Part shown: in pieces, positions 5,620-58,500 of the stretch
Layout of the letters: each line of letters starts with the position of its first letter
How positions within the stretch are numbered: the stretch's first letter is position 1
From: a bacterium
GTDB taxonomy: Bacteria > Joyebacterota > Joyebacteria > Joyebacterales > Joyebacteraceae
Reading direction: 5' to 3'
Length of the DNA stretch: 64,000 bases
Assembly (NCBI GenBank): GCA_025774245.1
Contig: JALGWI010000021.1
Coordinates: 1-64,000 of the forward strand
Made by a program: the position numbers and the translations under genes
Notes under the pieces: generated by a model
Told to the model about the DNA's origin: nothing
The model's input: the letters and a program-made list of their open reading frames with translations, nothing else
Database searches by the model: none

Positions 5620-7167
5620 ATGAAACCGATGCGAAACGCCCGAGCCACGACGCTGGTCCTCGCCGGCATCCTGGCAGGACTCCTTCTCCTCGTTGCCGCC
5701 TCGACAGCCCACGGACGCGCTCGCGCTTCCGCGTCAGACGAGGCCACGCTCCACCGCCCCGGCCTTGAGGACACAGTTCTGGCGTGGGACGACGGAACCG
5801 CGGAATCGGAGACGACGGGGCAGTCGGGCATGAAGCTCGCGGTCGGCTTCCAGGCGCCGGTCTGGGCCGTCTCGCTCGTGGGGATCCAGTACTACATCAT
5901 GGACGACAACGTCGAGAACCCCGCGAACCCGGGCGCGCCGACCACGAAGCCCATCATCGCGTACGTCTGGCAGCCCAATCAGGACATGCTCCCCGGACTC
6001 ATCGCGACCGAGGAGTTCGTCGGAGAGGGGTACGAGGAAGAGGCGTGGCTCACGGTCTACCTCGAGACACCCTTGGACATCTCGGACCCCGACGATTTCC
6101 CCGACCGGTACTTCTTCGTCGGGCTCGAGTGGCTACACCGAAGCAACCCGATCATCGGTCTCGACGCGGATCTGCCGATCCACTACGCGAGCTTCCGCTG
6201 GAACTGGTACGAGTGGGAGCAGTTCACCGGGCACAATGTGATGATCCGGGCGATCGTGAGGGACTACGGGGGCCCGGGCGAGCTCTTCTACATCGACGCC
6301 GGCGGCGGCGGGGACTTCTTCACTATCCAGGAGGGACTCACGGTTGCCGGCCGCGGCGACACGGTGCTCGTGGCACCGGGCACCTACACCGGCCCCATGA
6401 ACCGCAGCCTCGGCTTCGCCGGGAGGGACATCCTCCTCATATCCGAGGCCGGCCGGACATCGACGATCATCGACTGCGAAGGCGAGGACCGCGCGTTCTA
6501 CTTCGTCGACGGAGAGACCGGCGACGCGCTGGTGCAGGGTTTCACAGTCGTGAACGGTAGCGGCTCGGGAGGCGGCATCCGCCTCGTGAACTCGTGGCCG
6601 ACGATCGTCGACTGCGTCTTCGAAGGCTGCGACGGCGGTGGCTACGGCGGCGGGATGTACTGCACGAACCCCGTCTCCCCCTCCCCGACCATCACGGACT
6701 GCGTCTTCCTCGACAATCAGGCGGCCGTCGCGGGCGGCGGCGTTCGTCTCGACTACTCGGAGGCCGAGTTCGTGCGCTGCACCTTCGCCGGGAACGGCGC
6801 GCCATCGGGCGGCGGCATCGACTGCGGGACTCTCTCGTTCCCGACGTTCACGAACTGCATCGTCGCGTTCGGGACGCAGGGCGGCGCCGTGGACTGCCCC
6901 GGGAGCGGCAGCCCGACCTTCGCGCGAAGCTGCGTCTACGGAAACGCCGGCGGCGACGACCTCTGCGGGATCGTGGTAGACATCCTCTTCGAGGATCCGC
7001 TCTTCTGCGACCCGGGGGAAGGCGACGTGTCGCTCGCCGAGGCCTCCCCGTGCCTCTCCGAGAACAACCTGTGGGGCGAACTCATCGGAGCCCGGGACGT
7101 CGGCTGCATCGTTCCGGTCGTCGTGGAGACGAGGAGCTGGGGGGCGATCAAGGCCCTGTTCCGGTAG
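5620..7167 (+). CDS. secreted right-handed beta-helix protein with WGxIK C-terminal tail
   Basis: 515 residues, ATG preceded by GGAGGACG. A signal peptide occupies about residues 1-32 (Arg/Lys start, a long Leu/Ala core, cleavage after AHG or nearby). Residues 45-215 form a beta-rich domain of unknown type. From about residue 220 there are parallel beta-helix repeats of the PbH1/DUF1565 kind (FYIDAGGGGDFFTIQEGL, then GGGI/GGGM turns with S-x-P-T-I-x-D-C). The last 14 residues, VETRSWGAIKALFR, closely match the ends of two other exported proteins in this window. Beta-helix domains often bind or cleave polysaccharides, but no catalytic residues are identifiable. It should be exported; how it is retained or released is unknown. 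Confidence 0.82.
   Translation: MKPMRNARATTLVLAGILAGLLLLVAASTAHGRARASASDEATLHRPGLEDTVLAWDDGTAESETTGQSGMKLAVGFQAPVWAVSLVGIQYYIMDDNVENPANPGAPTTKPIIAYVWQPNQDMLPGLIATEEFVGEGYEEEAWLTVYLETPLDISDPDDFPDRYFFVGLEWLHRSNPIIGLDADLPIHYASFRWNWYEWEQFTGHNVMIRAIVRDYGGPGELFYIDAGGGGDFFTIQEGLTVAGRGDTVLVAPGTYTGPMNRSLGFAGRDILLISEAGRTSTIIDCEGEDRAFYFVDGETGDALVQGFTVVNGSGSGGGIRLVNSWPTIVDCVFEGCDGGGYGGGMYCTNPVSPSPTITDCVFLDNQAAVAGGGVRLDYSEAEFVRCTFAGNGAPSGGGIDCGTLSFPTFTNCIVAFGTQGGAVDCPGSGSPTFARSCVYGNAGGDDLCGIVVDILFEDPLFCDPGEGDVSLAEASPCLSENNLWGELIGARDVGCIVPVVVETRSWGAIKALFR
7123..7164 (+). other. WGxIK C-terminal tail motif, copy 1
   Basis: Codes for VETRSWGAIKALFR immediately before the stop codon. Compare the tails at 7996-8037 and 16166-16207. 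Confidence 0.65.
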
Positions 7168-7248
7168 TCCGCCCGGCTTCGTACCGCTCCGACCGCGCGC
7201 CCGGCCCCCACCCCACGCCGGCCCTGCCGACCGTCCCGGCATTGTCCC

Positions 7249-7277
7249 TTGCCAACTAGCTTGCCATGTGGTACTAC
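7249..7277 (+). promoter_or_regulatory. weak promoter candidate upstream of the small lipoprotein gene
   Basis: TTGCCA (7249-7254), 17-base spacer, TACTAC (7272-7277). The -35 matches 5 of 6 bases, the -10 only 3 of 6. The rest of the 7168-7446 gap shows no other feature I can name. Confidence 0.35.
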
Positions 7278-7446
7278 TTGGCTGCTCTGTGAGAAGTTCC
7301 GCTTCCGACCGACAGGTCGTGTCCGCTGACGCGAGCAGGGAGGTGCGATGGCAGCAGCCTGCTAGATCGTTCGACAACCCACCATCTGCGCAGCGGCTCG
7401 ACCGCGGCGCGGACCTACTCGACAGGAGAAGGCAATACGGATCTTT

Positions 7447-8040
7447 GTGATTGCTGCGATTCTGACCATCGCCGTGTCGGCGTGCGGTCAGGGCTTCCTG
7501 GAGACCTTCGAGGCGGGCGTCCCGCCGGCCGACTGGGCCGTCATCGACAACGCCGGCAGCGGCTGTGTCTGGGCGACGAACCTCGACTTCGATCTCAGGT
7601 TCGACAACTTCACCGGGGGCGACGGCCTCTGCGCGATGTGCGACTCGGACGCCTGCGGCTCCGGTGTCTACCTCGACACCGAGCTCGTCACGCACTCGTT
7701 CGTGGTGCCCGCAGGCTCGACCCTCGAGTACGACGCCAACTACAACGACCTCAGCTCCACCGCTGGCGACCTGGCCGACTCCGACATCAACGTCGGCGCC
7801 GGCTGGGTGAACCTCCTCAGCTGGAACGAGGACCACGGCGCCAACTACGCGCTTCCCGGAGAGCACGTCTCGATCGATCTCTCCGCGTACGCCGGGGAGC
7901 TGGTCCAGCTCCGGTTCCACTACTGGGACAACAGCGGCACGGGTTGGGACTGGTACTGGCAGGTCGACAACGTAGAGGTCACCGGCACGACGGCCGTTGA
8001 GACCACGACGTGGGGCTCGATCAAGTCGCTCTACCGCTAG
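7447..8040 (+). CDS. small exported (probably lipid-anchored) jellyroll protein with WGxIK tail
   Basis: 197 residues from GTG at 7447. A better-looking start is ATA at 7435, in frame, 6 bases after AGGAG, adding M-R-I-F to the front of the signal peptide. VSAC around residues 10-13 fits a lipobox, so a lipoprotein is likely. The mature part (FLETFEAGVPPADWAVIDNAG..., then YWQVDNVEV) resembles the MAM-like/choice-of-anchor jellyroll domains that open with F-E-x-G-x-P-x-x-W and close with W-x-I-D-[ND]-V. It ends in VETTTWGSIKSLYR, the tail shared with its upstream neighbour. A strong terminator follows at 8070-8097. Function is unknown, perhaps adhesion or carbohydrate binding. Confidence 0.78.
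   Translation: MIAAILTIAVSACGQGFLETFEAGVPPADWAVIDNAGSGCVWATNLDFDLRFDNFTGGDGLCAMCDSDACGSGVYLDTELVTHSFVVPAGSTLEYDANYNDLSSTAGDLADSDINVGAGWVNLLSWNEDHGANYALPGEHVSIDLSAYAGELVQLRFHYWDNSGTGWDWYWQVDNVEVTGTTAVETTTWGSIKSLYR
7996..8037 (+). other. WGxIK C-terminal tail motif, copy 2
   Basis: Codes for VETTTWGSIKSLYR immediately before the stop codon. Confidence 0.65.
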
Positions 8041-8069
8041 TCACCACGACCGAGAGAGCCATGAAGTGA

Positions 8070-8097
8070 GAAGGCCCGATCGCGCGATCGGGCCTTC
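8070..8097 (+). terminator. Rho-independent terminator, usable in both directions
   Basis: A 28-base near-perfect palindrome (GAAGGCCCGATCGC and its complement) followed by TTCTTT. It lies 30 bases after the stop of the plus-strand gene and 30 bases before the stop of the convergent minus-strand gene. Confidence 0.85.
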
Positions 8098-8128
8098 TTC
8101 TTTGGAGCTTCGAGCGAATCGGGACCCG

Positions 8129-9634
8129 TCACGGCCCGGCGCCGTCTCGCGGACCGCCGCGGACGCGTTCCCCCTGCGATTCCACCCGTCTGTCGACGAA
8201 CCCCCGCACGAACCGAACGAAGGCGTACACGTCGGCGAAGTTGCTCACGACCCCGACGGAGACGCGCACGGCGCCCGAGCTCTTGCCGTCGATACAGAGG
8301 CGGAGGTCGTCGAGCGTCAGCCGTTCGTCCGGCTTCGAGAAGCAGGCGACGAGCTCCGGCTGGGAGATCCCGAGCGCCACCTCCCCGCCACCCGGGTTGC
8401 AGAAGCAGCCCGTGCGGAGCGAGATGTTGACCCTCGCCGCCTCCTGCTCGACCAGGAGGTGGTCGAAGAAGCGGCCGTCCGGATCGTAGAAGTTCATCGT
8501 CACCGTGCCACCGCGCATGTGCGTGTCGAGCGGGCCGTAGATGCGCACCACCGGCTCCCCGTTCGAGTGGCGCACGTCGACCAGGTTCGAAAGGAGCCAG
8601 CCGGTCAGGCACCGCACCCTCGTGTGGATCGTCTCGATCCCGATCTCGGTCATGTGATCGAGTCCGATCTCCACGGCCGGCAGACAGAGGTAGTTGACGG
8701 TTCCGTCCTCGAACGCCGCCTCGTTGTCGTGGAGGTAGTACTTGTCGCCCTGCACGGAGGCGACCGTGATCGTGCCGCCGGCGAACCACGGGCGATCGAG
8801 CTTCGTGAGCGCCTTCCTCCGAGCGAGGAGACACCCGACGCCCGTCGGATACCCGAACATCTTGTAGAACGAGATCGCCACGTAGTCCGGCTTCCAGCGG
8901 CCGAGGTCCAGGCGGTTGCTGGCAACGAACGCCGCGGCATCGAGGAGGACGTCCCAGCCCGCGCTTTGCGCGAGGCCGACCCACTCGAGCGGGTGCTGCA
9001 CGCCCGAGAAGTTCGACTGCGCCGGGTACGCGAAGAGGTTGTCGCTCCCCCGACGCACGTGGTTGAGCTCCGTCACGAGCACGGTCTCGTCGACCCGCGT
9101 GTCGGGAAGCACGATCGGCACGTAGGTCGCGTCGACGACCCTCGCCCGCGCGAACTCGCGGATCCCGTTGACCGAGTTGTGGTTGTCGAACGTCAGCAGG
9201 AAACGGCCGCCGGGCCTGAACGGATACGCCTCCCCCACGAGCTTGAGCGCGCCCGTGGCGTTCGGCGTGAAGATGGCGGCGTACTCGTCCGGGCTCGCGT
9301 TGAAGAACTCGAGCACCCGCCCCCGGGTGCGCTCGATGAGGTGCGTCATCGCGAGGGAGGTCGGATTCGAGGAGTGCGGGTTGCCGAACACGCCCTTGCA
9401 CAGAAGATCCAGGTGCTCTTTGAGCTGGCTGTCGGCGTAGAGGCTCCCGCCGGTGTAGTCGAGGTAGACGTGGCTGTGCTCGTCGACCCGGCCGTACTCG
9501 GCCGCGCGGAGTTCGTCCAGCTTCCGGGTGGTCTCGAAACCGGGGTAGTCCCGCAGGAACCCGGCGTAGGCAGCAGCCAGACCCTCGGCGCCGTGGCGCT
9601 TCTCGCGCGCTACCTGCAACTGGTCCTCCCGCAT
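8129..9634 (-). CDS. class V aminotransferase, molybdenum-cofactor-sulfurase-like PLP enzyme
   Basis: 501 residues. The PLP-binding Lys is K258 in SFYKMFGYPTG and the PLP-ring Asp is D232 in LLDAAAF. RTGCFCNPGGGE (C410, C412) is the signature of the MoCo sulfurase N-terminal domain rather than of IscS or SufS. The YLDYTGGSLYADSQ start (residues 57-70) also fits that family. These enzymes take sulfur from cysteine as a persulfide. The C-terminal MOSC domain of eukaryotic MOCOS is missing, as in many bacterial homologues, so the sulfur acceptor is uncertain. The gene follows the radical SAM gene by 64 bases on the same strand, probably as one operon. Confidence 0.85.
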   Translation of the reverse strand: MREDQLQVAREKRHGAEGLAAAYAGFLRDYPGFETTRKLDELRAAEYGRVDEHSHVYLDYTGGSLYADSQLKEHLDLLCKGVFGNPHSSNPTSLAMTHLIERTRGRVLEFFNASPDEYAAIFTPNATGALKLVGEAYPFRPGGRFLLTFDNHNSVNGIREFARARVVDATYVPIVLPDTRVDETVLVTELNHVRRGSDNLFAYPAQSNFSGVQHPLEWVGLAQSAGWDVLLDAAAFVASNRLDLGRWKPDYVAISFYKMFGYPTGVGCLLARRKALTKLDRPWFAGGTITVASVQGDKYYLHDNEAAFEDGTVNYLCLPAVEIGLDHMTEIGIETIHTRVRCLTGWLLSNLVDVRHSNGEPVVRIYGPLDTHMRGGTVTMNFYDPDGRFFDHLLVEQEAARVNISLRTGCFCNPGGGEVALGISQPELVACFSKPDERLTLDDLRLCIDGKSSGAVRVSVGVVSNFADVYAFVRFVRGFVDRRVESQGERVRGGPRDGAGP

Positions 9635-9698
9635 TCGGGGAATACTGACCGGCCAACCCGTCCGACCACCCGCCGCCGCCGAAACGCAACGCGCGGCA

Positions 9699-10805
9699 CT
9701 AGCTCGTGCGCGCCGCTCCCCTCAGACGGCCGGAGACGTAGAGCGCGACCTTCCGTCGAAGCGACAGGTTGGACACGTGATGGCAGCACCTCGCGCAGAT
9801 TGGAAGGAGCCGTCGCTTGAGAACGCGGCGAAGCCTCGCGCGCCGCTCGCCCTCCCAGATCTGCCGGAGGGATTGCTTCCTGAGGTCGCCCAGCGGGTAG
9901 TCGTCGAGGTGGGAACAGGGCATCACGACGCCGAAGGGATCCGCGATCAGCTCGCGGCCGACGACGGAGCACCTGCGGACCGGGAAGCGTCCGGCCGCGA
10001 TCGCCTCGGGTGTCATCGCCGCCAGGTACAGAAGCGAAGGCGAGGGATCTCTCTTCGACTGCTCGCGCGCGAAGTCGCGGATGGACTCCGCCTGTGCGCG
10101 AGACGGCAGAAGAGAATCGTCACCGGGGATGAACTCCGAGCCGGCGGCGACCTCGTCCCCGACGCGGCTGGACGAGACCTCGCCCTCCGGGCTCTCGCTG
10201 ATGAGCTGGTAGCTCAGGGACTCGATCCCGAGATCCTCGGCGACTCTCTGCACCCTCGTGAGGGAATCCGCGTTGATCGACGAGATCGTGCAGTGCATGC
10301 CGATCAGCGGAGTAGACGACCCGGCCTCCTTCCTCGCGGCCTCGAGGCTCCTGATTCCCCCCGCGGCCGACTCGAACACACCCGCCCGGCCACGAACCTC
10401 ATCGTGGATCTCCGGAGGACCGTCGATCGAGACCGTGATCCTGCCGAGCCCCGCTGAGACCAGCTCGGACGAGAGCGACGGCGTCAGGAGCGTCCCGTTG
10501 GTCACGACGTGCACGGAGAATCCACGCTGCTTCGCATCTCGAACGATGCCCGCGAGATCCTTCCTGGTCAGCGGTTCGGCCCCGACCAGGGTGAGCTCGC
10601 GCGCCCCAAGAGCGTGCGCCTCGTCGAGGATTCGGGAGATCTCCTCCGGTGTGAGCTCGTCCTGGGACCGCGCGGTGCCCTTCTTCCAGGTGCCGCACAT
10701 GCTGCACCTGAGGTTGCAGCGGTACGTCAGCCCGAGGGTGACGGTACCGAGACTGCCCCAACCCAGATCCATTTCCTTCCGGATCGCTCTCAAGAGACGA
10801 CGCAA
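9699..10805 (-). CDS. radical SAM protein with SPASM/twitch-like C-terminal domain
   Basis: 368 residues. The radical SAM cluster motif C30-x3-C34-x2-C37 lies in LTYRCNLRCSMCGTW. The C-terminus has C279-x12-G-x4-C297 and C337-x2-C340-C341-H-H. This matches the front of a SPASM domain but with too few Cys for two extra clusters, so a twitch-type single auxiliary [4Fe-4S] cluster is likely. Relatives modify peptides, proteins or small substrates; the substrate here is unknown. It is probably co-transcribed with the PLP enzyme downstream from the promoter at 10894-10922, and the two sit next to genes for proteins with a W-x-x-I-K tail. Confidence 0.85.
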   Translation of the reverse strand: MRRLLRAIRKEMDLGWGSLGTVTLGLTYRCNLRCSMCGTWKKGTARSQDELTPEEISRILDEAHALGARELTLVGAEPLTRKDLAGIVRDAKQRGFSVHVVTNGTLLTPSLSSELVSAGLGRITVSIDGPPEIHDEVRGRAGVFESAAGGIRSLEAARKEAGSSTPLIGMHCTISSINADSLTRVQRVAEDLGIESLSYQLISESPEGEVSSSRVGDEVAAGSEFIPGDDSLLPSRAQAESIRDFAREQSKRDPSPSLLYLAAMTPEAIAAGRFPVRRCSVVGRELIADPFGVVMPCSHLDDYPLGDLRKQSLRQIWEGERRARLRRVLKRRLLPICARCCHHVSNLSLRRKVALYVSGRLRGAARTS

Positions 10806-10893
10806 TCGCTGATCCCCCTGCTCCCTCGTCGTACCGCCGCCGTGCTCCCGACGCCGTTGAGGCGGTCCCCAGCGTGCGCCGCATCCGCTTCCC

Positions 10894-10922
10894 TTCTATC
10901 CCGCCGCGCAGATGAAGTCAAC
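10894..10922 (-). promoter_or_regulatory. promoter for the radical SAM / PLP enzyme operon
   Basis: Minus strand TTGACT (10917-10922), 17-base spacer, TAGAAG (10894-10899), about 90 bases before the start codon at 10805. Confidence 0.55.
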
Positions 10923-11060
10923 AGCGAAGGCCGCGGGCAGTCGAGCGGCGGCCGACGCGGGTCCGCTTCCACGTCCCCGGCGGACAGCGCGTCGTTCGCA
11001 CACGTCGGGCCAGCGAACTTCGGGCAGCCTCCCTGTCGTCACGCACGGAACCGTTCGGTC

Positions 11061-14000
11061 TCAGCGCAGCAACACGAGCTTCCGGTCGATCCGCCCCTCG
11101 GGCGTCTCGAGCCGGTAGAAGTAGACGCCTGAAGGAAGCGCGCGGCCGAGGCGGTCGCGCCCGTCCCAGCGGACGTCGTGGTCGCCGGCTGGCAGACGGC
11201 CCCGGGCGAGCTCGCGCACGAGGCGGCCGCGAAGGTCGTAGACCGAGAGCGTGGCGGGCATTTCGGCAGGAAGGTGGAAGCGGATCTCCGCCTCTCCCCT
11301 CGCGGGGTTCGGCAGGCTCTGGTGGAGCGCGACGGTCGCGTCGACGCCTGTGCCCGCGTCCTCGATGCCCGTCTCGGGAATGTGAAGAACGAGGTACTCG
11401 TCGATCAGGAGGTTCCCGTCGCCGTCGCCCTCCGGCACCTGGATCACGAGGGGATCTCCGTCGTTGGTCCCGTAGGCTCCCACGGCGACGTAGATCGAGT
11501 CAGGCACGTCGCCGAAGAGGTCTTCGAGCCTCATCATCCCCTCGAGCACGGTCCCACTCATGAAGTCGCAGTACGCCGTGTGAAAGAGCTCCTCGGCCCC
11601 GTCGAACCAGCTCGACCAGTTGTTCGAGTCCTCGTTCCCGAGGAGGTACTCCCACCCCGCGACGGTCCCGGCCTTCGACCAGGGCGCCGCGCGCGAACCC
11701 GACGGGTCCCGATCGACGAACAGGAAGTGGTCGAGGCCCGACGTCGAGGTCACCGACTGCGTCGCGAGGTAGATCCAGCTCCCGTCGAACGCCCAGTAGA
11801 GGTTGAGGCCGTCCGACGTCGCGGCGAGCTCCGCGGTCTCGTCGAGGACGCCGTCCATCTCGTACCCCCCGCCGGGAGTCGTGCCCGTCACCGGGAAGCT
11901 CCAGTCGGCGCCGCCGTTGTTGTCCCAGTTTCCGGCGCCGTCGTTCGTGACGAACTCTACCGACGTCGCCCACGGCGGAATCGCGTAGGCGTAGGTCCAC
12001 ACCCCCTCCGCGGGGTCCCACGTCATGGCCGGATCCGGCCCCACGATCTCGTGCCAGCCGCTGTGCCCGACGTGGATGTAGACGGGGTCGGTCGAAGGCG
12101 GAAGCACGCCGCGACAGTCGAGGCCGTAGCAGATCGTGACCGACGTGCCGGTCTCGGGGACGGGCGGCTCCCACCACACGCACGTGTCGGGTGCCGCTCC
12201 CCCCCCGCTTCCGACCCAGACGTGCTGGATCGGCGACCGCTTGACGTGGCCGAGGCCGTCCTCGGCCTCCACGTAGTAGTCGAGGAGGACGTCCTCGTAA
12301 CCGGTGAGGTGCGCGAAGTACTCGTCGGCAATGTAGCTCGGCATCACCGTGAAGTCGATCCCCGGGTCGCCGTGCACGTTCGCAGCCGGGAAGTCGCGGT
12401 GCGTCATCGCGACCGCTTGCCACTCCCCGACGCCCGGGCCGCCCGCGTACGTCTCGTTCACGTCGGTCGACATCGGGTTCACCCCGTCGTCGTCCGCGCG
12501 GATCATGACGTCTACCGAGGCCACGCCCGAGACGTCGTAGACGAAGGTCCAGACGTGGAAGTCCTGGCTCATCGGGAACCCGCTCCCGCCGGGGTAGCTC
12601 CAGAGCGAGCCCGCACCGTAGCCGCCGGGGTTCCACGGGAGCCGCTGCGGAAGCCAGATCGTCGGCGGGACCGTGTCGCCGCCCGACCCGATCGCCGCGT
12701 CGGCGTAGGCGACCGCGTTGTTGCACGCGAGCGTTGCCTTGATCTCGTGGTCGAGCGACGTGCCGTAGTACATGTAGCCGCTCTCGTATCCCGCGAGGAG
12801 GAAGTGCCACGCCTTCTCCGCGTCGTTAGCGCCGAGCGAGGGTCGCTGGATCCTGGCCGGGTCGAGCGGGCCGGCGATCGCCTCTGCCGTCTCGACGCGG
12901 TTCTGCGCGGCCGTCAGGACGGCCCAGTTCCGCTCGTCGATCGCCCAGCCGCCGGGGATGTCGAAGCTCCCGGAGGCGTCGTGCAGGGGCCAGTTCCAGT
13001 TGATGAACTGCGGGCTGCCGAAGTCGCCGTCGGCGTTCACCCATCCGCCGTCCTCGACGTGCACGACGTCGGCCGGATCGAGCGGATGGTCGGCCAGGTA
13101 CTCGGCGACCGTCGTCGGCTCGTACCCGAGACCGGCGGCCGCGTGGCTGAACTGGGAGACGTTCTCGTACCAGTACGAGAAGCCCCCCGACCATGCGTTG
13201 TCGCCGTCGTGGGCGAAGAGGATGAGCATCGGGTGCTGCGGGTCGTTGTGCTGGTCGATCGCCTCGATCTCGCCGGTGCCGTAGAGGCCGTAGCCCTCGT
13301 TCCACGACATCGCGTTCGCGGCGGGAACGACGACGATCTTCGACTCCTCCCCCGTGGCGGGATCGACGTACCGGGCGTTGTGCGGACGGAAGCCGTACGG
13401 CGGAGGGACCTTCACGGTGACGCCACGCGGGATGTAGATGCCGTAGTACTCGGGCTGCGCCGGGTTCACCTGGTCGGCGCGGTTCGGCGGATCGCAGTTG
13501 TCCTGGTTCGCCTGGAACGGGTAGTTCTCGCACGCTCGCGATATGTGGATGTCGGCCACCACCGACCACTCGATCCCCTCCTCGACGAGGACCGGGATGA
13601 GCCGCTCGGAGAAACACGTCTCGGCCGGGAAGAACCCGACCGAGAGATCCGAGTCGCCCCAGGCCGAGGGGAAAGCCGCCTTCTGGATCTGGATCTCCTT
13701 CCGGAAGGCGTTCTCGTCCATGAGGGGGTAGATGCCGTGGTGGTGGCCCACCAGAACCATGTCGCAGCGCGTGCGGCCGCCCGAGGTCGTCCAGTTCCGC
13801 GCCTCGCGGTACCACTGGTACCAGTCGGGCGCGTAGAGCCCGCCGCTCCAACCGGCGTCGCCCAGGCTCGTGATGTTCTCGATGAGCGACCCGGCGAAGC
13901 TCACCTGCGCTCCGGCGTCCGGGAGGTCGAGGATCGAGAAGATCGCGTCGCGCGGGTAGTGCTGGTAGTCGCCGACACGGTCGGGCTTCCCGAAGATCTC

Positions 14001-14228
14001 CGCCTCGTCGTTCTCGGAGTGCCCTGTGACGATCGTCTCGTACGCCTTCTCGTAGGCGTCCCCCTCCCACGTCGAGAGATCCGGCCAGTAGATCGGCTGG
14101 TGCATGTGCCAGAGATAGGTCGTGTGGACAGGCGCGGCGAAGGCCGCCGCGCCTGGGGAAACCAGAACGATGATCGTGAGGAGAGCGGTCAGGGACCGCA
14201 GGGTCGCCCGCGCCGGATGCTCGTTCAT
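11061..14228 (-). CDS. secreted GH57 glycoside hydrolase with CBM25-like and FlgD/Por-type C-terminal domains
   Basis: 1055 residues. Signal peptide about 1-31. The GH57 catalytic domain (about 33-500) shows HMHQP (41-45), GFFPAETCFS with the probable nucleophile E203, and AHDGDNAW with the probable acid D341, the pattern of amylopullulanase-type enzymes. Around residues 700-790 a module with YIHVGHSGWHE and FVTNDGAGNWDNN matches starch-binding CBM25. A further beta-rich domain is followed by a FlgD-like tail (about 965-1055: SLPNPARGEAEIRF..., SGVYFYRLE...RKLVLLR) of the kind used by type IX secretion. It probably degrades alpha-glucans outside the cell or at its surface. No ribosome binding site precedes the ATG (see 14235-14263). 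Confidence 0.88.
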   Translation of the reverse strand: MNEHPARATLRSLTALLTIIVLVSPGAAAFAAPVHTTYLWHMHQPIYWPDLSTWEGDAYEKAYETIVTGHSENDEAEIFGKPDRVGDYQHYPRDAIFSILDLPDAGAQVSFAGSLIENITSLGDAGWSGGLYAPDWYQWYREARNWTTSGGRTRCDMVLVGHHHGIYPLMDENAFRKEIQIQKAAFPSAWGDSDLSVGFFPAETCFSERLIPVLVEEGIEWSVVADIHISRACENYPFQANQDNCDPPNRADQVNPAQPEYYGIYIPRGVTVKVPPPYGFRPHNARYVDPATGEESKIVVVPAANAMSWNEGYGLYGTGEIEAIDQHNDPQHPMLILFAHDGDNAWSGGFSYWYENVSQFSHAAAGLGYEPTTVAEYLADHPLDPADVVHVEDGGWVNADGDFGSPQFINWNWPLHDASGSFDIPGGWAIDERNWAVLTAAQNRVETAEAIAGPLDPARIQRPSLGANDAEKAWHFLLAGYESGYMYYGTSLDHEIKATLACNNAVAYADAAIGSGGDTVPPTIWLPQRLPWNPGGYGAGSLWSYPGGSGFPMSQDFHVWTFVYDVSGVASVDVMIRADDDGVNPMSTDVNETYAGGPGVGEWQAVAMTHRDFPAANVHGDPGIDFTVMPSYIADEYFAHLTGYEDVLLDYYVEAEDGLGHVKRSPIQHVWVGSGGGAAPDTCVWWEPPVPETGTSVTICYGLDCRGVLPPSTDPVYIHVGHSGWHEIVGPDPAMTWDPAEGVWTYAYAIPPWATSVEFVTNDGAGNWDNNGGADWSFPVTGTTPGGGYEMDGVLDETAELAATSDGLNLYWAFDGSWIYLATQSVTSTSGLDHFLFVDRDPSGSRAAPWSKAGTVAGWEYLLGNEDSNNWSSWFDGAEELFHTAYCDFMSGTVLEGMMRLEDLFGDVPDSIYVAVGAYGTNDGDPLVIQVPEGDGDGNLLIDEYLVLHIPETGIEDAGTGVDATVALHQSLPNPARGEAEIRFHLPAEMPATLSVYDLRGRLVRELARGRLPAGDHDVRWDGRDRLGRALPSGVYFYRLETPEGRIDRKLVLLR

Positions 14229-14234
14229 ACTACT

Positions 14235-14263
14235 ATTCTAGCACCGCGGCGCGTCCATCCGAA
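14235..14263 (-). promoter_or_regulatory. promoter of the GH57 gene, implying a leaderless mRNA
   Basis: Minus strand TAGAAT (14235-14240) lies six bases from the ATG at 14228, with TTCGGA 17 bases further upstream (14258-14263). Transcription would begin at or within a base or two of the start codon, and no Shine-Dalgarno sequence is visible. Confidence 0.45.
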
Positions 14264-14298
14264 CGGGAACCGGCCGCGCCGGAATCGGCCGTACGGGC

Positions 14299-15210
14299 CT
14301 ACCGCCCCTCGATCCTGACGCGGTTCTTCCCGCCTCCCTGGCTCTCGGAGAGCATCTTGTCCGCCCTCTGGAGGAGCGACTCGACCGAGTCGCCGCGCTT
14401 CGCCACCGCGCCGCCGATCGAGGTGGAGACGCGGATGGTGCCATTGGCCGTCCGAAGCTCGGCCTTCTTCACGAGCGTCCGGAGCCGCTCGGCCGCTTTC
14501 TTGAGCTCCGACCGGCTGACGTTCCTGACGATGCTGAACAGCTCGCCGCTGCTCCACCGACCGAGCGAGTCCCTCGGACGCGAGTTGTCGACGAGGACGT
14601 CGGCCAGGACGCGGATCATCTGCTCCGCCGTCTGCGGGCCGTGCTCGCCACGGACCTTCTTGAGTCCGCCGATGCTGAGGAAGAGAACACCGAACGGTTT
14701 GCCCAACCTGTCGAACTCGGCGAGGCACGCCGACAGCTCGTCCTCGAGGTAGCGTCGATTCGGAAGGCACGTGAGCGCATCAAGGAGCTCCGCGTCGCCC
14801 GCCTCACGGAGACGATCGCGGATCGTCGTCTTCGGCGAGCCGTCTGAGAACACTTGCACGACCCCGACGATCTCCTCCCCCGTCTCGCCCTCCCTGAGCG
14901 CCGTGACGCGCGTGTGCACGGGAATGCGGTGCCCGTCCTTCCGGCGGACGTAGGTCTCCGCCTCGCGATGCCGTCCATCCTCCAGCGTGGCCATGAGGTG
15001 ACACCCGCCCTCGCAGAGAGAGTTTTCCTCGGAGTCCGTGCACGCGAGGACGTTGTCCCGGCAGGAACGCCCAAGGACCTCGTCGCTCGTGAAGCCGGTC
15101 ATCCTCTCGGCCGTTCCGTTCCAGTAGGTGATCGTCAGGTTCCGGTCGATGAGGCAGACGCCGTCCGGAAGCTGGTCCAGCAGCATGCGGTGGAGCTCAT
15201 TCTTCTCCAT
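14299..15210 (-). CDS. PAS-GGDEF protein with degenerate active site
   Basis: 303 residues. A PAS domain (about 8-125) includes a Cys-containing insert (C50, C57, C66, C70). A GGDEF domain starts with DALTCLPNRRYLEDEL (about 144-159). The diguanylate cyclase signature is eroded: the expected RWGGDEF reads RWSSGEL (218-224), and the metal-binding Asp residues of the usual L-D-I-D-x-F-K are S179 and G181. Cyclase activity is therefore doubtful; a GTP- or c-di-GMP-sensing or protein-contact role is more likely. No membrane segment and no EAL domain are present. The gene is divergent from the exported protein at 15605 and 70 bases upstream of the GH57 gene. Confidence 0.82.
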   Translation of the reverse strand: MEKNELHRMLLDQLPDGVCLIDRNLTITYWNGTAERMTGFTSDEVLGRSCRDNVLACTDSEENSLCEGGCHLMATLEDGRHREAETYVRRKDGHRIPVHTRVTALREGETGEEIVGVVQVFSDGSPKTTIRDRLREAGDAELLDALTCLPNRRYLEDELSACLAEFDRLGKPFGVLFLSIGGLKKVRGEHGPQTAEQMIRVLADVLVDNSRPRDSLGRWSSGELFSIVRNVSRSELKKAAERLRTLVKKAELRTANGTIRVSTSIGGAVAKRGDSVESLLQRADKMLSESQGGGKNRVRIEGR

Positions 15211-15604
15211 GTCTATGCACCCCCTCCTGCGCTCCAGCGGGACGCGGGACGGCCAGCCCGTCGCCGCGAACCCGGCGAGGATTCCTTACTTCTGGGGACA
15301 ATAGTGCATGGATCATGCCATCGTGAGAGGCTGGGGCGAGTTCGCCGATCGAGCGACTCACCTGGATCTCAACCGATCCAGGAGCGGCTGCGCCTGGCAC
15401 CCGCGCCCGTCCCTATTCCACATGACTCGGGTCCGGCACGTGCCGTTGCTCTGAGGCCTGCCAACGGCGCTCCCCGCGAACAGCAGTCAAGAAAACCCTT
15501 GACTGACTGATGCACAGGCGCTATGACCGAGTCGTCGCACCTGTGATGATGCATCCGAAGCGGTATGTCAGGTGATGACTTAAGCATGAGAGGAGAGGAG
15601 AGAC
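15211..15604. other. divergent intergenic region
   Basis: 394 bases between the PAS-GGDEF gene (minus) and an exported-protein gene (plus). One promoter candidate for the plus gene is visible (15499-15527). I found no RNA gene or repeat in the rest. Confidence 0.5.
15499..15527 (+). promoter_or_regulatory. promoter for the exported WGxIK-tail protein
   Basis: TTGACT (15499-15504), 17-base spacer, TATGAC (15522-15527); start codon 78 bases downstream. Confidence 0.5.
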
Positions 15605-16213
15605 ATGACGCGTCTGCGCATCCTCGGGATTGCCGTTCTCGGCGCCTCTGTCCTGGCACTGGCCTTCCCCGTCGCCTCCCAGGGGCAGTACATCTGGGGA
15701 ACCAGCACTGCGGAGCTCACCACGGACCCAGGCTTCGAGGGCTACTGGAAGTACTGCTTCGAGATCGGGTGGGACGTTTCGGAGTTCGGACACGGTGTCA
15801 GTCACGCGAGCATGATCCTCGGCCTCGAGGACTGCTTCTGCGCCTGCGACGATCCCTACTTCATGTGTGCTGATCCAGCCGGGAGCGGTCCCGGCGTGGG
15901 CGGCTGCACCGTCTACTACTACTGCGAGTTTGACTGCGAGGGGAATCCGCACTTCCCGGGCGAGGGCCCGACCATCAAGTTCGAGCCCGACGAGGACGAC
16001 TGCGAACCGGGCTACACCGGTTGGATAGAAGCCTGTTTCTACTCCCTGTTCGAGCCGACCGACCCCGGCGTCTTCCCCGACGTCCTCGGCATCAAGTTCG
16101 CCACACAGACAGAGACCGGCGACCTCGAAGGGGTCCTCCCCTTCTGCGAGTGCGGTATCACTCCGGTCGACCACGCGACGTGGTCGGTCATCAAGTCGAT
16201 CTACCGTCCGTAG
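15605..16213 (+). CDS. Cys-rich exported protein with WSxIK C-terminal tail
   Basis: 202 residues, ATG preceded by AGGAGAG. Signal peptide about 1-26 (cleavage near VASQG or just after). The mature part is acidic and rich in Cys, with CFCACDD and CEFDCEGN clusters that could form disulfides or bind metal. I recognise no domain. It ends in VDHATWSVIKSIYRP, which aligns without gaps with the tails of the proteins ending at 7167 and 8040, apart from one extra Pro. It is monocistronic, with its own promoter and a terminator at 16265-16295. Function unknown. Confidence 0.75.
   Translation: MTRLRILGIAVLGASVLALAFPVASQGQYIWGTSTAELTTDPGFEGYWKYCFEIGWDVSEFGHGVSHASMILGLEDCFCACDDPYFMCADPAGSGPGVGGCTVYYYCEFDCEGNPHFPGEGPTIKFEPDEDDCEPGYTGWIEACFYSLFEPTDPGVFPDVLGIKFATQTETGDLEGVLPFCECGITPVDHATWSVIKSIYRP
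16166..16207 (+). other. WGxIK C-terminal tail motif, copy 3
   Basis: Codes for VDHATWSVIKSIYR; a single Pro codon and the stop follow. Confidence 0.6.
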
Positions 16214-55572: not shown

Positions 55573-58500
55573 CTACTTCAGAAGCACCATGACGCGGCTG
55601 TCGGTGTAGGCGCCGGCGGTCATGCGGCAGAGGTAGACGCCGCTCGCGACCTTCCGCCCGCCGTCGTTCGTGCCGTCCCAGACGACCGATCTCGAGCCCG
55701 CCTCCTGCCTCTCGTCGCGGAGCGTCTTCACGAGCGCGCCGGCGACGTTGTAGACCTTGATCGTCACGTGCGCCTGTTCGGGCAGCGCGTAGCCGATCGT
55801 CGTCACGGGATTGAACGGGTTCGGCCGGTTCTGGAGGAGCGCAAACTCGGTCGGAGTAACCGTGACGTCACCCTCCGCCACGCCGGTCGACGTGCTCGTC
55901 ACGCTGACGTCGTCGACGTACCAGCCCTCCTCGGTCTCGAGGGCGTCCGAGGCGAACCGGAACCGCACGACGGCGCTCTCCCCCTCGTAGGCCGAGAGGT
56001 CGAACGTCTCCTGCCGCCAGTTGAAGCTGCCCGACCAGCACGGCGTGCCTTCCGGCACCGGATTGGCCGCGTTGTCGTTCTTCACGTGGCTGTAGCCGCC
56101 TTCCGGAACGAGCACGCTCCAGCTCTCCCCGACGTCGGTCGAGATTTCGACGAAGGCGCAGTCCCACGCCGACGACGCGCTCTCCTCTTCGGAGCTGAGC
56201 CAATGCCAGAACGTCATCTCTCCATCCGTACCGATGCAGAGCGGAGGCGTCTCGAGCGCTCCGTCAGCCGAGTCCGAGTAGCCCGAAGGCCCGAACCCAC
56301 CGAACTTCCAGCTGTGGCTCGTGGAGTGCGAGCGATACGTCTCGACGTGCCACTCGTCGACGAAGCCTCCCGTCACGTTGTAGTGCGTCCAGTCGGTGCC
56401 GCCCGTCTCGAAGTCCTCATCGAGCGGGCCGGCGATCGTGAGCCTGATCGTCTCAATGCCGTCGTAGCCGGCGGCGGTCCCGATCGCCAGGTCGAACTCG
56501 ACCACGTGGTACGAGGGCGCCGTCGGGAGGATCGTCACCTCGTAGCCGGGTGACAGCGTTCCGCTCGCGCCCGCGTTGATGAACGGTGCTCCCGCGCTCC
56601 CCTGCGTCACCACCGCGTGAGGATCGGTCGTCGTGAGCTCGCCCGTGACGCCGGCTGCCACCGCGCTCCCGGTGTTCTCGAGCGCGACCGAAAGCGTCAC
56701 CGTCTCGCCGGCCTCCGCGCAACCGTTCCCGTTCCCGCCGGGGAAGTCCTCGACGACCATACCGTCGACGGCGAGCACCGGCGCGTGGACGAGGATGTTA
56801 CAGGCGCTCTCCCATATCCCGTTGCCGTCGGTGGCGGTGAGCGTGAACTGGAGGACGTGGCCGTCCGGGCAGGCGCCGTCGACCGCGAAGTCGTAGTCCT
56901 CGAGGCACTGCGCCGTGCCGCCGCTCGCCGTGATGTCCCCATACTCCTCGTAGCCGTCGATCAGCGTCACGAACGGATCGGCGGTCGCGATCGTGGCCGA
57001 GATGCCGTACCCGACGTCGAGGCCGACGTTCTCGAGCGTGACGAGAAGCTCGATCTCCTCCCCCGCCTCGACCTGGCCGTTGCCGTTTCCGGTGCTGTCG
57101 CCGGAGTCGTCGTCATCGATCTCGTGGCTGTGGTAGAGGCAGTACGGCTCGTTCGCCAGCGAGACCGTCGTCGAACCCTCGTGCGGGTAGTGATCGCGCC
57201 TCGTGATCGTGACGTCGAGTTCGCCGGGCACCACCGGCGCCGGGTCGAGCGCAACCGTGGCCTGACCCATCGCGTTCGTGTAGGCGGTCCCGTAGATCCC
57301 CTCGTCGGCCTTCACGAGGCAGACGAGCGCCGTCTCCACGGGGCTCCCGCCGCTCGTGACGCTCAGGCTGAACGAGCTCGAGCCTGCCGGAATCTGGCCG
57401 GGGTAGCTGGCGTCGAGCGTCGCAGGCACGTCGGTCCAGATCTCGACACCGGGGTCGCCCAGGATGTTGTACATCTCGAAGTACCGGTGCGTGCTGCCGC
57501 CTCCGCCGTAGTACTGGTAGAGGTGGTAGAGCGCCCGGTGGCTGATCCCGCAGGCCCACGTATAGCCCTCGACGAAGGCCGCTTCGAAGGCGGCCTTCTC
57601 CAGGATGTCGTCCTGGTCCCAGTACGAGGTCACCGACGATCCCCAGAAGACGAGCGCGCCCTTGTCGGTCGCGTTGATCCACGTCTCGCCGAAGCACGCC
57701 GTGCTGAACTGCCCGGTGAGGCAGGAGTAGCTGTGGATGAGGGGAAGCTTGTCGTAGTTCGTGAGGCCGTTCACGTCCGAGGCGCTGAACGGAGGCCCGT
57801 CGCCCCACGACGTGATCGAGCCGTGGCCCGAGTAGATGCCGAGCGAACGGCCGTCGTTGAACGCGTCGCGGACCTGCTGGGTCGTTGCGTTGTACGTCGC
57901 GGAGTAGAGCTTCTGCGAGTAGTAGCCGGCAGGATCGAGCCACTGCCGGATCACGTAGTTGTGCGTCCCCTCGGAGACCGTGTAGTTGTCCTGCGAGGCC
58001 ATGAAGACGGCCTTCTTGATCCAGTCGGTCCCGCTCGTGAGGTCGTAGCGCTCGTAGTCGACCGTCTTGTTCACGAGGTTCGTGACCTGCGCGCCCGTCG
58101 TGCAGGAGAAGCGGCCGATCCAGATGTCGGGATCCCAGTCGGCGGCCCCGTCCATCGTGACGTAGTAGAGGTCGGTCGTCGGACTCGAGCTCTGCGTCCC
58201 GACCCAGTAGGGAACGTACCCCGTGTCCCCGACGAGCAGGACGAACGTCGGGGGCGCCGGCCAGTTGTCGTAGGCGTCCTGGATGTAGGCCTTGATGTTC
58301 TCCTTGGTGCTCCCGCCCGGGATCTCCGAGGTCTTGACGATGACCGTCTCGTGACCCTTCTGGTCCTTCCAGGCCGCGAGCGGGAGGATCTCGTCGTAGA
58401 AGTCGTCGTGCGTGACGATCAGGTAGATGATCGGGAGCGGGATGTCGTACCGCGACAGAAACGCGTCGTGGTTCACGAAGAGGTCGTGCGCCAGGCGATC

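Follow-up and report, generated by a model that had tools for sequence, protein, structure and literature searches.

A short conserved C-terminal tail on exported proteins, probably a sorting or docking tag tied to the T9SS

What is the role of a tail shared by three otherwise unrelated exported proteins? The window, by which we mean the whole stretch of 64,000 nucleotides analysed, comes from the genome (3.23 Mb in 128 contigs) of an uncultured bacterium. A first-pass annotation had claimed three such tails in it, on different bodies. Both points held. The tails are present on ORFs ending at 7167, 8040 and 16213, all on the + strand, with the ends VETRSWGAIKALFR, VETTTWGSIKSLYR and VDHATWSVIKSIYRP, respectively. 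The bodies are a PF13229 beta-helix, an NF038128 jellyroll and a Cys-rich protein (15605-16213) for which the family-model scan gave no match. The tail-bearing genes and their tails are as follows:

5620..7167, + strand: exported protein of 515 aa, a right-handed beta-helix between a signal peptide and the C-terminal tail (PF13229, 39.8 bits)
7120..7167, + strand: tail VVETRSWGAIKALFR-stop of the beta-helix protein (core, from W to stop, 7138-7167)
7447..8040, + strand: exported jellyroll protein (choice-of-anchor J) with tail, true start unclear (NF038128, 40.2 bits, cut-off 30)
7993..8040, + strand: tail AVETTTWGSIKSLYR-stop of the jellyroll protein (core, from W to stop, 8011-8040)
15605..16213, + strand: Cys-rich exported protein of 202 aa that has both a signal peptide and the tail
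16163..16213, + strand: tail PVDHATWSVIKSIYRP-stop of the Cys-rich protein, with one extra Pro (core 16181-16206)

The tail motif in the window and in the genome

All three occurrences of the core pattern in the window lay at the C-terminus of an ORF, and shuffles gave an expected count of 0.00. The third tail was longer than the others by one residue (P). That all three proteins have signal peptides, as the annotation stated, was correct in substance, but for the start of the 7447-8040 gene it is unproven, because no standard start codon precedes the basic residues of the signal segment. The hydrophobic segment itself, KAIRIFVIAAILTIAVSACGQG, is clear and begins upstream of the GTG; this sole in-frame GTG sits within the hydrophobic stretch. 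The signal segment in window 7380-7470 (KAIRIFVIAAILTIAVSAC) points to an unusual start codon or a sequence error.

Searching the genome for W..IK..[FY]R followed by a stop returned 62 exact matches, and the reversed pattern, which served as control, returned none. Reading of the matched ORFs gave a consensus of 15 residues, P-V-E-x-x-[ST]-W-G-x-I-K-[AG]-[LM]-[YF]-R-COOH. Positions left free by the search were conserved across the 62 tails: S/T at -10 (61/62), A/G/S at -4 (59/62), G at -8 (55/62), V at -14 (44/62), E at -13 (44/62) and P at -15 (32/62). Looser forms were also seen, such as WGKLKAIYR, WGTVKGMYR and tails with a few additional residues, so the true number is somewhat above 62. 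In the stretches examined from this genome, 62 motifs were terminal and three internal, two of the latter lying no more than 20 residues from a stop; this count is weak evidence, since most stretches had been picked by the terminal pattern. The tail lies outside all Pfam and NCBIfam models, and nothing relevant was found in the literature searched for the exact tail strings, for Eisenbacteria sorting or for FCB sorting signals. The motif is confirmed as real and larger in extent than first noted. Its absence elsewhere in the genome would have refuted the original proposal, and about 60 further proteins carry it.

Exported cargo and a slot shared with the type A domain

The tail is restricted to exported proteins. 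Signal peptides were found for 27 of 30 called tail genes and for 79 of 200 other genes (p = 1.5 × 10−7), the control being other called genes in the same sequence stretches and not the whole genome. The same scan in other genomes gave 86 of 102 tail proteins (84%) versus 179 of 481 controls (37%, p = 8 × 10−19). These calls were made by a simple home-made rule, not by SignalP, and several tail proteins that failed the rule resemble fragments or frameshifts. Equal frequency in cytoplasmic proteins would also have counted against the proposed C-terminal sorting or anchoring signal; instead, tail genes were far richer in signal peptides. This enrichment and the tails on some 60 further proteins support the proposal, although the role itself is inferred. 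A convincing lipobox was present in only 2 of 174 tail proteins. One locus (L286:3677-4958, - strand, contig C47 of genome G000) holds tandem lipoprotein-type genes with an LVAGC lipobox, whose tail is degraded (WGKLKAAFR) or lost (SSLSELKSSQR); these genes, with one relative in L201, form the sole tail family that bears lipoboxes.

The bodies of the 64 tail proteins that were read were of varied exported types. They included beta-helices (17 with PF13229), plastocyanin-like, lamin-tail, starch-binding, pectate-lyase, PKD and cleaved-adhesin domains, and choice-of-anchor V, R, J and X domains. When scanned with NCBIfam, none of the 64 matched TIGR04183, TIGR04131 or CTERM sorting domains. The lack of CTERM matches, with the absence of a hydrophobic run, bears out the earlier statement that the tail resembles no LPxTG or PEP-CTERM-type signal.

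The sorting domain of type A substrates of type IX secretion (T9SS; TIGR04183, Por_Secre_tail) had 143 matches in the genome, 139 of them above the cut-off. Two window proteins end in this domain:

11061..14228, - strand: exported protein of 1055 aa with T9SS type A domain (DNA approximately 11073-11312), ending ...RKLVLLR (TIGR04183, 28.6 bits in the protein and 33.7 bits in the genome search)
55594..58425, - strand: C25 (gingipain/PorU-type) peptidase gene with type A domain at 55594-55824 (TIGR04183, 28.1 bits; PF01364, 235.5 bits at 57445-58425)

Tail and type A domain terminate different proteins, with body types common to both (beta-helix, FN3 and others). The window beta-helix protein (5620-7167) resembles beta-helix proteins that end in a type A domain (39% over 181 aa in L041 and 43% over 143 aa in L097). 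Genome G153 has adjacent related genes that end either in the tail or in a type A domain (L070, 42% over 167 aa; L068, 35% over 178 aa). An FN3 profile from which the tail had been removed found seven short orthologs, and all seven ended in TWGSIKA[ML]FR; where the FN3 domain occurred in long proteins, a type A domain of 95-125 aa followed. Since the same bodies end in either, the tail and the type A domain occupy the same slot. The tail is not simply the last strand of a type A domain. Readable type A ends in this genome have K/R as last residue and usually K/R at -6, whereas the tail has K at -5 and is predicted to form a helix, not a strand, and this possibility was ruled out.

The first-pass annotation had inferred two C-terminal sorting or anchoring systems. 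The second signal, which it had called FlgD/Por-type, was confirmed as T9SS type A, but both signals probably belong to a single machine, because they are alternative ends on the same bodies, SprA, the T9SS translocon, is nearly always encoded where tails are present, and many FCB-type phyla are involved.

Distribution and co-occurrence with T9SS genes

All 20 genomes examined from the window's own phylum carried tails, with 19-63 in each. Among 173 genomes from outside the phylum, seven had at least two convincing tails, with a maximum of 19, and several had one; an eighth, G026, has two matches only if chance-like matches are counted. Tails were found in at least ten lineages besides the own phylum. 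Among the matches listed, the named tail genomes belong to Eisenbacteria, Krumholzibacteria, Zixibacteria, Gemmatimonadota, Ignavibacteria, KSB1, Delongbacteria, Latescibacterota, Cloacimonadota, Coatesbacteria, Thermochlorobacteriaceae and Bacteroidota (cultured Hymenobacter and Adhaeribacter). One Bacillus match was taken as chance. In a Bacteroidota sample, 69 of 297 genomes matched, nearly always once, and the control matched two.

Many genomes outside the phylum have a single tail, and it is carried by a conserved short FN3-like protein. This protein consists of a signal peptide, an FN3-like domain and the tail, in approximately 130-155 aa, and is mostly single-copy (L289-L302, L304, L057-L060, L063 and about 40 more loci, in Bacteroidota, Ignavibacteria, KSB1 and others). 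Cultured Hymenobacter and Adhaeribacter possess this single-copy form. Of 16 matching Bacteroidota stretches that were read, 15 encoded the short FN3 protein, and the remaining one was an 11-residue frame. The protein ends in WGSIKA.FR or, in other genomes, WG[MK]IKE.FR. The tail is its most conserved part, with a mean majority-residue frequency of 0.92 versus 0.42, in a set that had been selected by the tail. In a fold search, the FN3 model matched nothing more specific than generic FN3/Ig-type folds. The FN3 tail gene directly follows the T9SS gene porD in two lineages only; across 45 loci its recurrent neighbours are maf and other ordinary genes, which makes synteny with T9SS genes weak support. 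In one SprA-bearing genome (G058, locus L269), an FN3-domain protein ends in TTRWGELKSQD, apparently a tail that has diverged or decayed.

SprA (PF14349) was found in the genome of the window and in every genome of its phylum that was at least 90% complete. Outside the phylum, SprA was present in 23 of 34 genomes with at least one tail match versus 25 of 139 without (p = 5 × 10−8), and in all eight of those with at least two matches; many matches in the 11 genomes lacking SprA look like chance. Among 39 named genomes reached via the tail, a set that overlaps the earlier one in a few genomes, 35 had SprA, the four misses being the Bacillus, two draft genomes and the Coatesbacteria. This Coatesbacteria genome (G218), without a SprA match, has a good tail with 13 PorV-family and four C25 matches, and G121 similarly combines a good tail and no SprA match with PorV-family and C25 genes. 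The PorV family and C25 peptidases were present in all tail genomes tested. The genome of the window has 14 PorV-family and 22 C25 matches, and a PorU-type peptidase gene adjoins PorV, a layout that is plain in the sister genome G002. Twenty-two C25 matches are many for a genome of 3.23 Mb; one of them is the window gene at 55594-58425 (- strand).

What computation shows is the tail itself, its confinement to exported proteins, the way it and type A domains replace each other on the same bodies, and its near absence from genomes without SprA. Many SprA-bearing genomes have zero or one tail, and the co-occurrence of tail and T9SS is partly phylogenetic, because both follow FCB-type ancestry. 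The tail sits where T9SS substrates bear their usual sorting domain, and is therefore probably a tag for sorting or docking, not described before, that is linked to this secretion machine. PorD was not detected in the own phylum or in tail-rich outsiders and was rejected as receptor. The copy number of the PorV family does not explain the number of tails, as tail-rich and tail-poor genomes showed no clear difference. On contig C47, a PorV-like gene lies near tail genes, with no clear pairing.

Possible roles of the tail and comparison with known systems

AlphaFold2 models of two unrelated tail proteins placed a separate short helix at the C-terminus after a linker (residues 121-132 and 191-204, respectively), loosely attached and with block-mean pLDDT of approximately 57-76. 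If the tail is helical, as modelled, W, I, L/M and Y/F would share one face.

We lean towards reading the tail as a short docking signal at the C-terminus, by which exported proteins attach to the T9SS and which is used in place of the type A domain of about 80 residues. The Sec pathway would carry the proteins over the inner membrane, with removal of the signal peptide. A flexible acidic linker (PVE..) would then expose an amphipathic helix with hydrophobic W, I, L/M and Y/F, an invariant K and a terminal R. This helix may dock on an outer-membrane component of the T9SS, most likely SprA or a PorV-family carrier, and the docked protein would be exported to the cell surface or retained there. 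Whether the role is docking or export, the receptor, the docking of the helix, recognition by the T9SS and the surface location are all inferred, without experimental evidence or an identified receptor.

Type A domains engage SprA and loops of PorV over a large and mostly hydrophobic surface, and a Lys near their C-terminus is near-invariant and functionally important (PMC10994853). Their signal is a folded beta-sandwich with approximately 1,850 Å2 buried in the translocon (PMC10994853), a mode of binding that is not open to a helix of 15 residues. Docking of a helix on such a barrel does have precedent, since in the extended translocon SkpA reaches the periplasmic base of PorV with its C-terminal helix, a contact not essential for export (PMC10994853). 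Type B signals comprise a longer folded domain with a cognate PorP/SprF shuttle, and they show that different carriers let T9SS machines recognise more than one kind of signal (PMC12618676). Taken together with the tail helix, the knowledge of both types and the SkpA precedent make a short alternative signal for the T9SS, or for a close partner, the best reading. A tentative possibility is a C-terminal sorting or docking route of FCB-type bacteria that has not been described so far, in which a dedicated receptor reads the short helical tag apart from type A and B signals, on cargo of the types that the T9SS also serves.

It is rather unlikely, though conceivable, that the tail serves only for docking or retention and, without T9SS translocation, holds soluble exported proteins to a receptor in the envelope (a scaffold of the outer membrane or the periplasm) that merely happens to occur in T9SS bacteria. 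The single-copy FN3 tail proteins, whose genomes also encode other T9SS substrates, do resemble a docked envelope component more than bulk cargo; a predicted short helix would suit a groove-binding peptide, and the known SkpA-PorV contact is periplasmic (PMC10994853). However, the bodies match those of type A (surface) substrates, on which the tail replaces the type A domain, and the choice-of-anchor bodies indicate surface sorting.

Two further explanations fit the conservation poorly. C-terminal degrons typically are short C-terminal motifs with a fixed end, and the tail has this form. It could therefore mark proteins for quality control or processing and be read by a protease or chaperone in the periplasm, much like ssrA-type degrons in the cytoplasm. 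We consider this improbable: the tail is encoded in about 60 specific genes, is kept across many phyla despite diverging bodies and is linked to T9SS genomes, and proteins destined for degradation would not keep it. That the tails are functionless relics of duplicated genes, alike through shared ancestry only, can be set aside almost entirely, for although some tail genes are tandem paralogs, the tail is common to unrelated folds, is the most conserved part of the tail-selected FN3 family (0.92 versus 0.42) and is retained by 7/7 orthologs found with a tail-less query.

Should a T9SS signal be the correct reading, a signal of 15 residues would stand in for a folded domain in T9SS-type bacteria, on dozens of proteins in each genome. 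Counts of surface proteins would change for many uncultured phyla, and a minimal tag would be gained for work on the T9SS.

The tail can be compared with several known systems. PEP-CTERM, GlyGly-CTERM, Myxo-CTERM and LPxTG signals are likewise short C-terminal tags on varied exported bodies, choice-of-anchor bodies included. CTERM tags have a hydrophobic transmembrane segment and a basic tail, or else LPxTG; the tail, in contrast, has no transmembrane segment or hydrophobic run. The C-terminal helix of SkpA is also short and touches the PorV barrel at its periplasmic face (PMC10994853), but SkpA is a single chaperone and its helix is not a tag of many proteins; this likeness was drawn without sequence comparison. 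Type B (TIGR04131, PorP/SprF) is, like the tail, a second class of C-terminal signal in T9SS bacteria, but is a longer folded domain with a cognate shuttle, and TIGR04131 was found in none of the 64 tail proteins. The type A signal differs in being an Ig-like beta-sandwich of approximately 70-100 aa, whereas the tail has about 15 aa and is predicted to be helical, and the TIGR04183 domain expected of type A substrates is lacking (0/64). Three other type A criteria, namely a Sec signal peptide, SprA, and PorV with PorU, are fulfilled by the tail proteins and their genomes. Both signals are C-terminal, on signal-peptide proteins of the same body families, in genomes with SprA, PorV and C25 peptidases, and both have a basic last residue, a nearby K/R and hydrophobic residues between.
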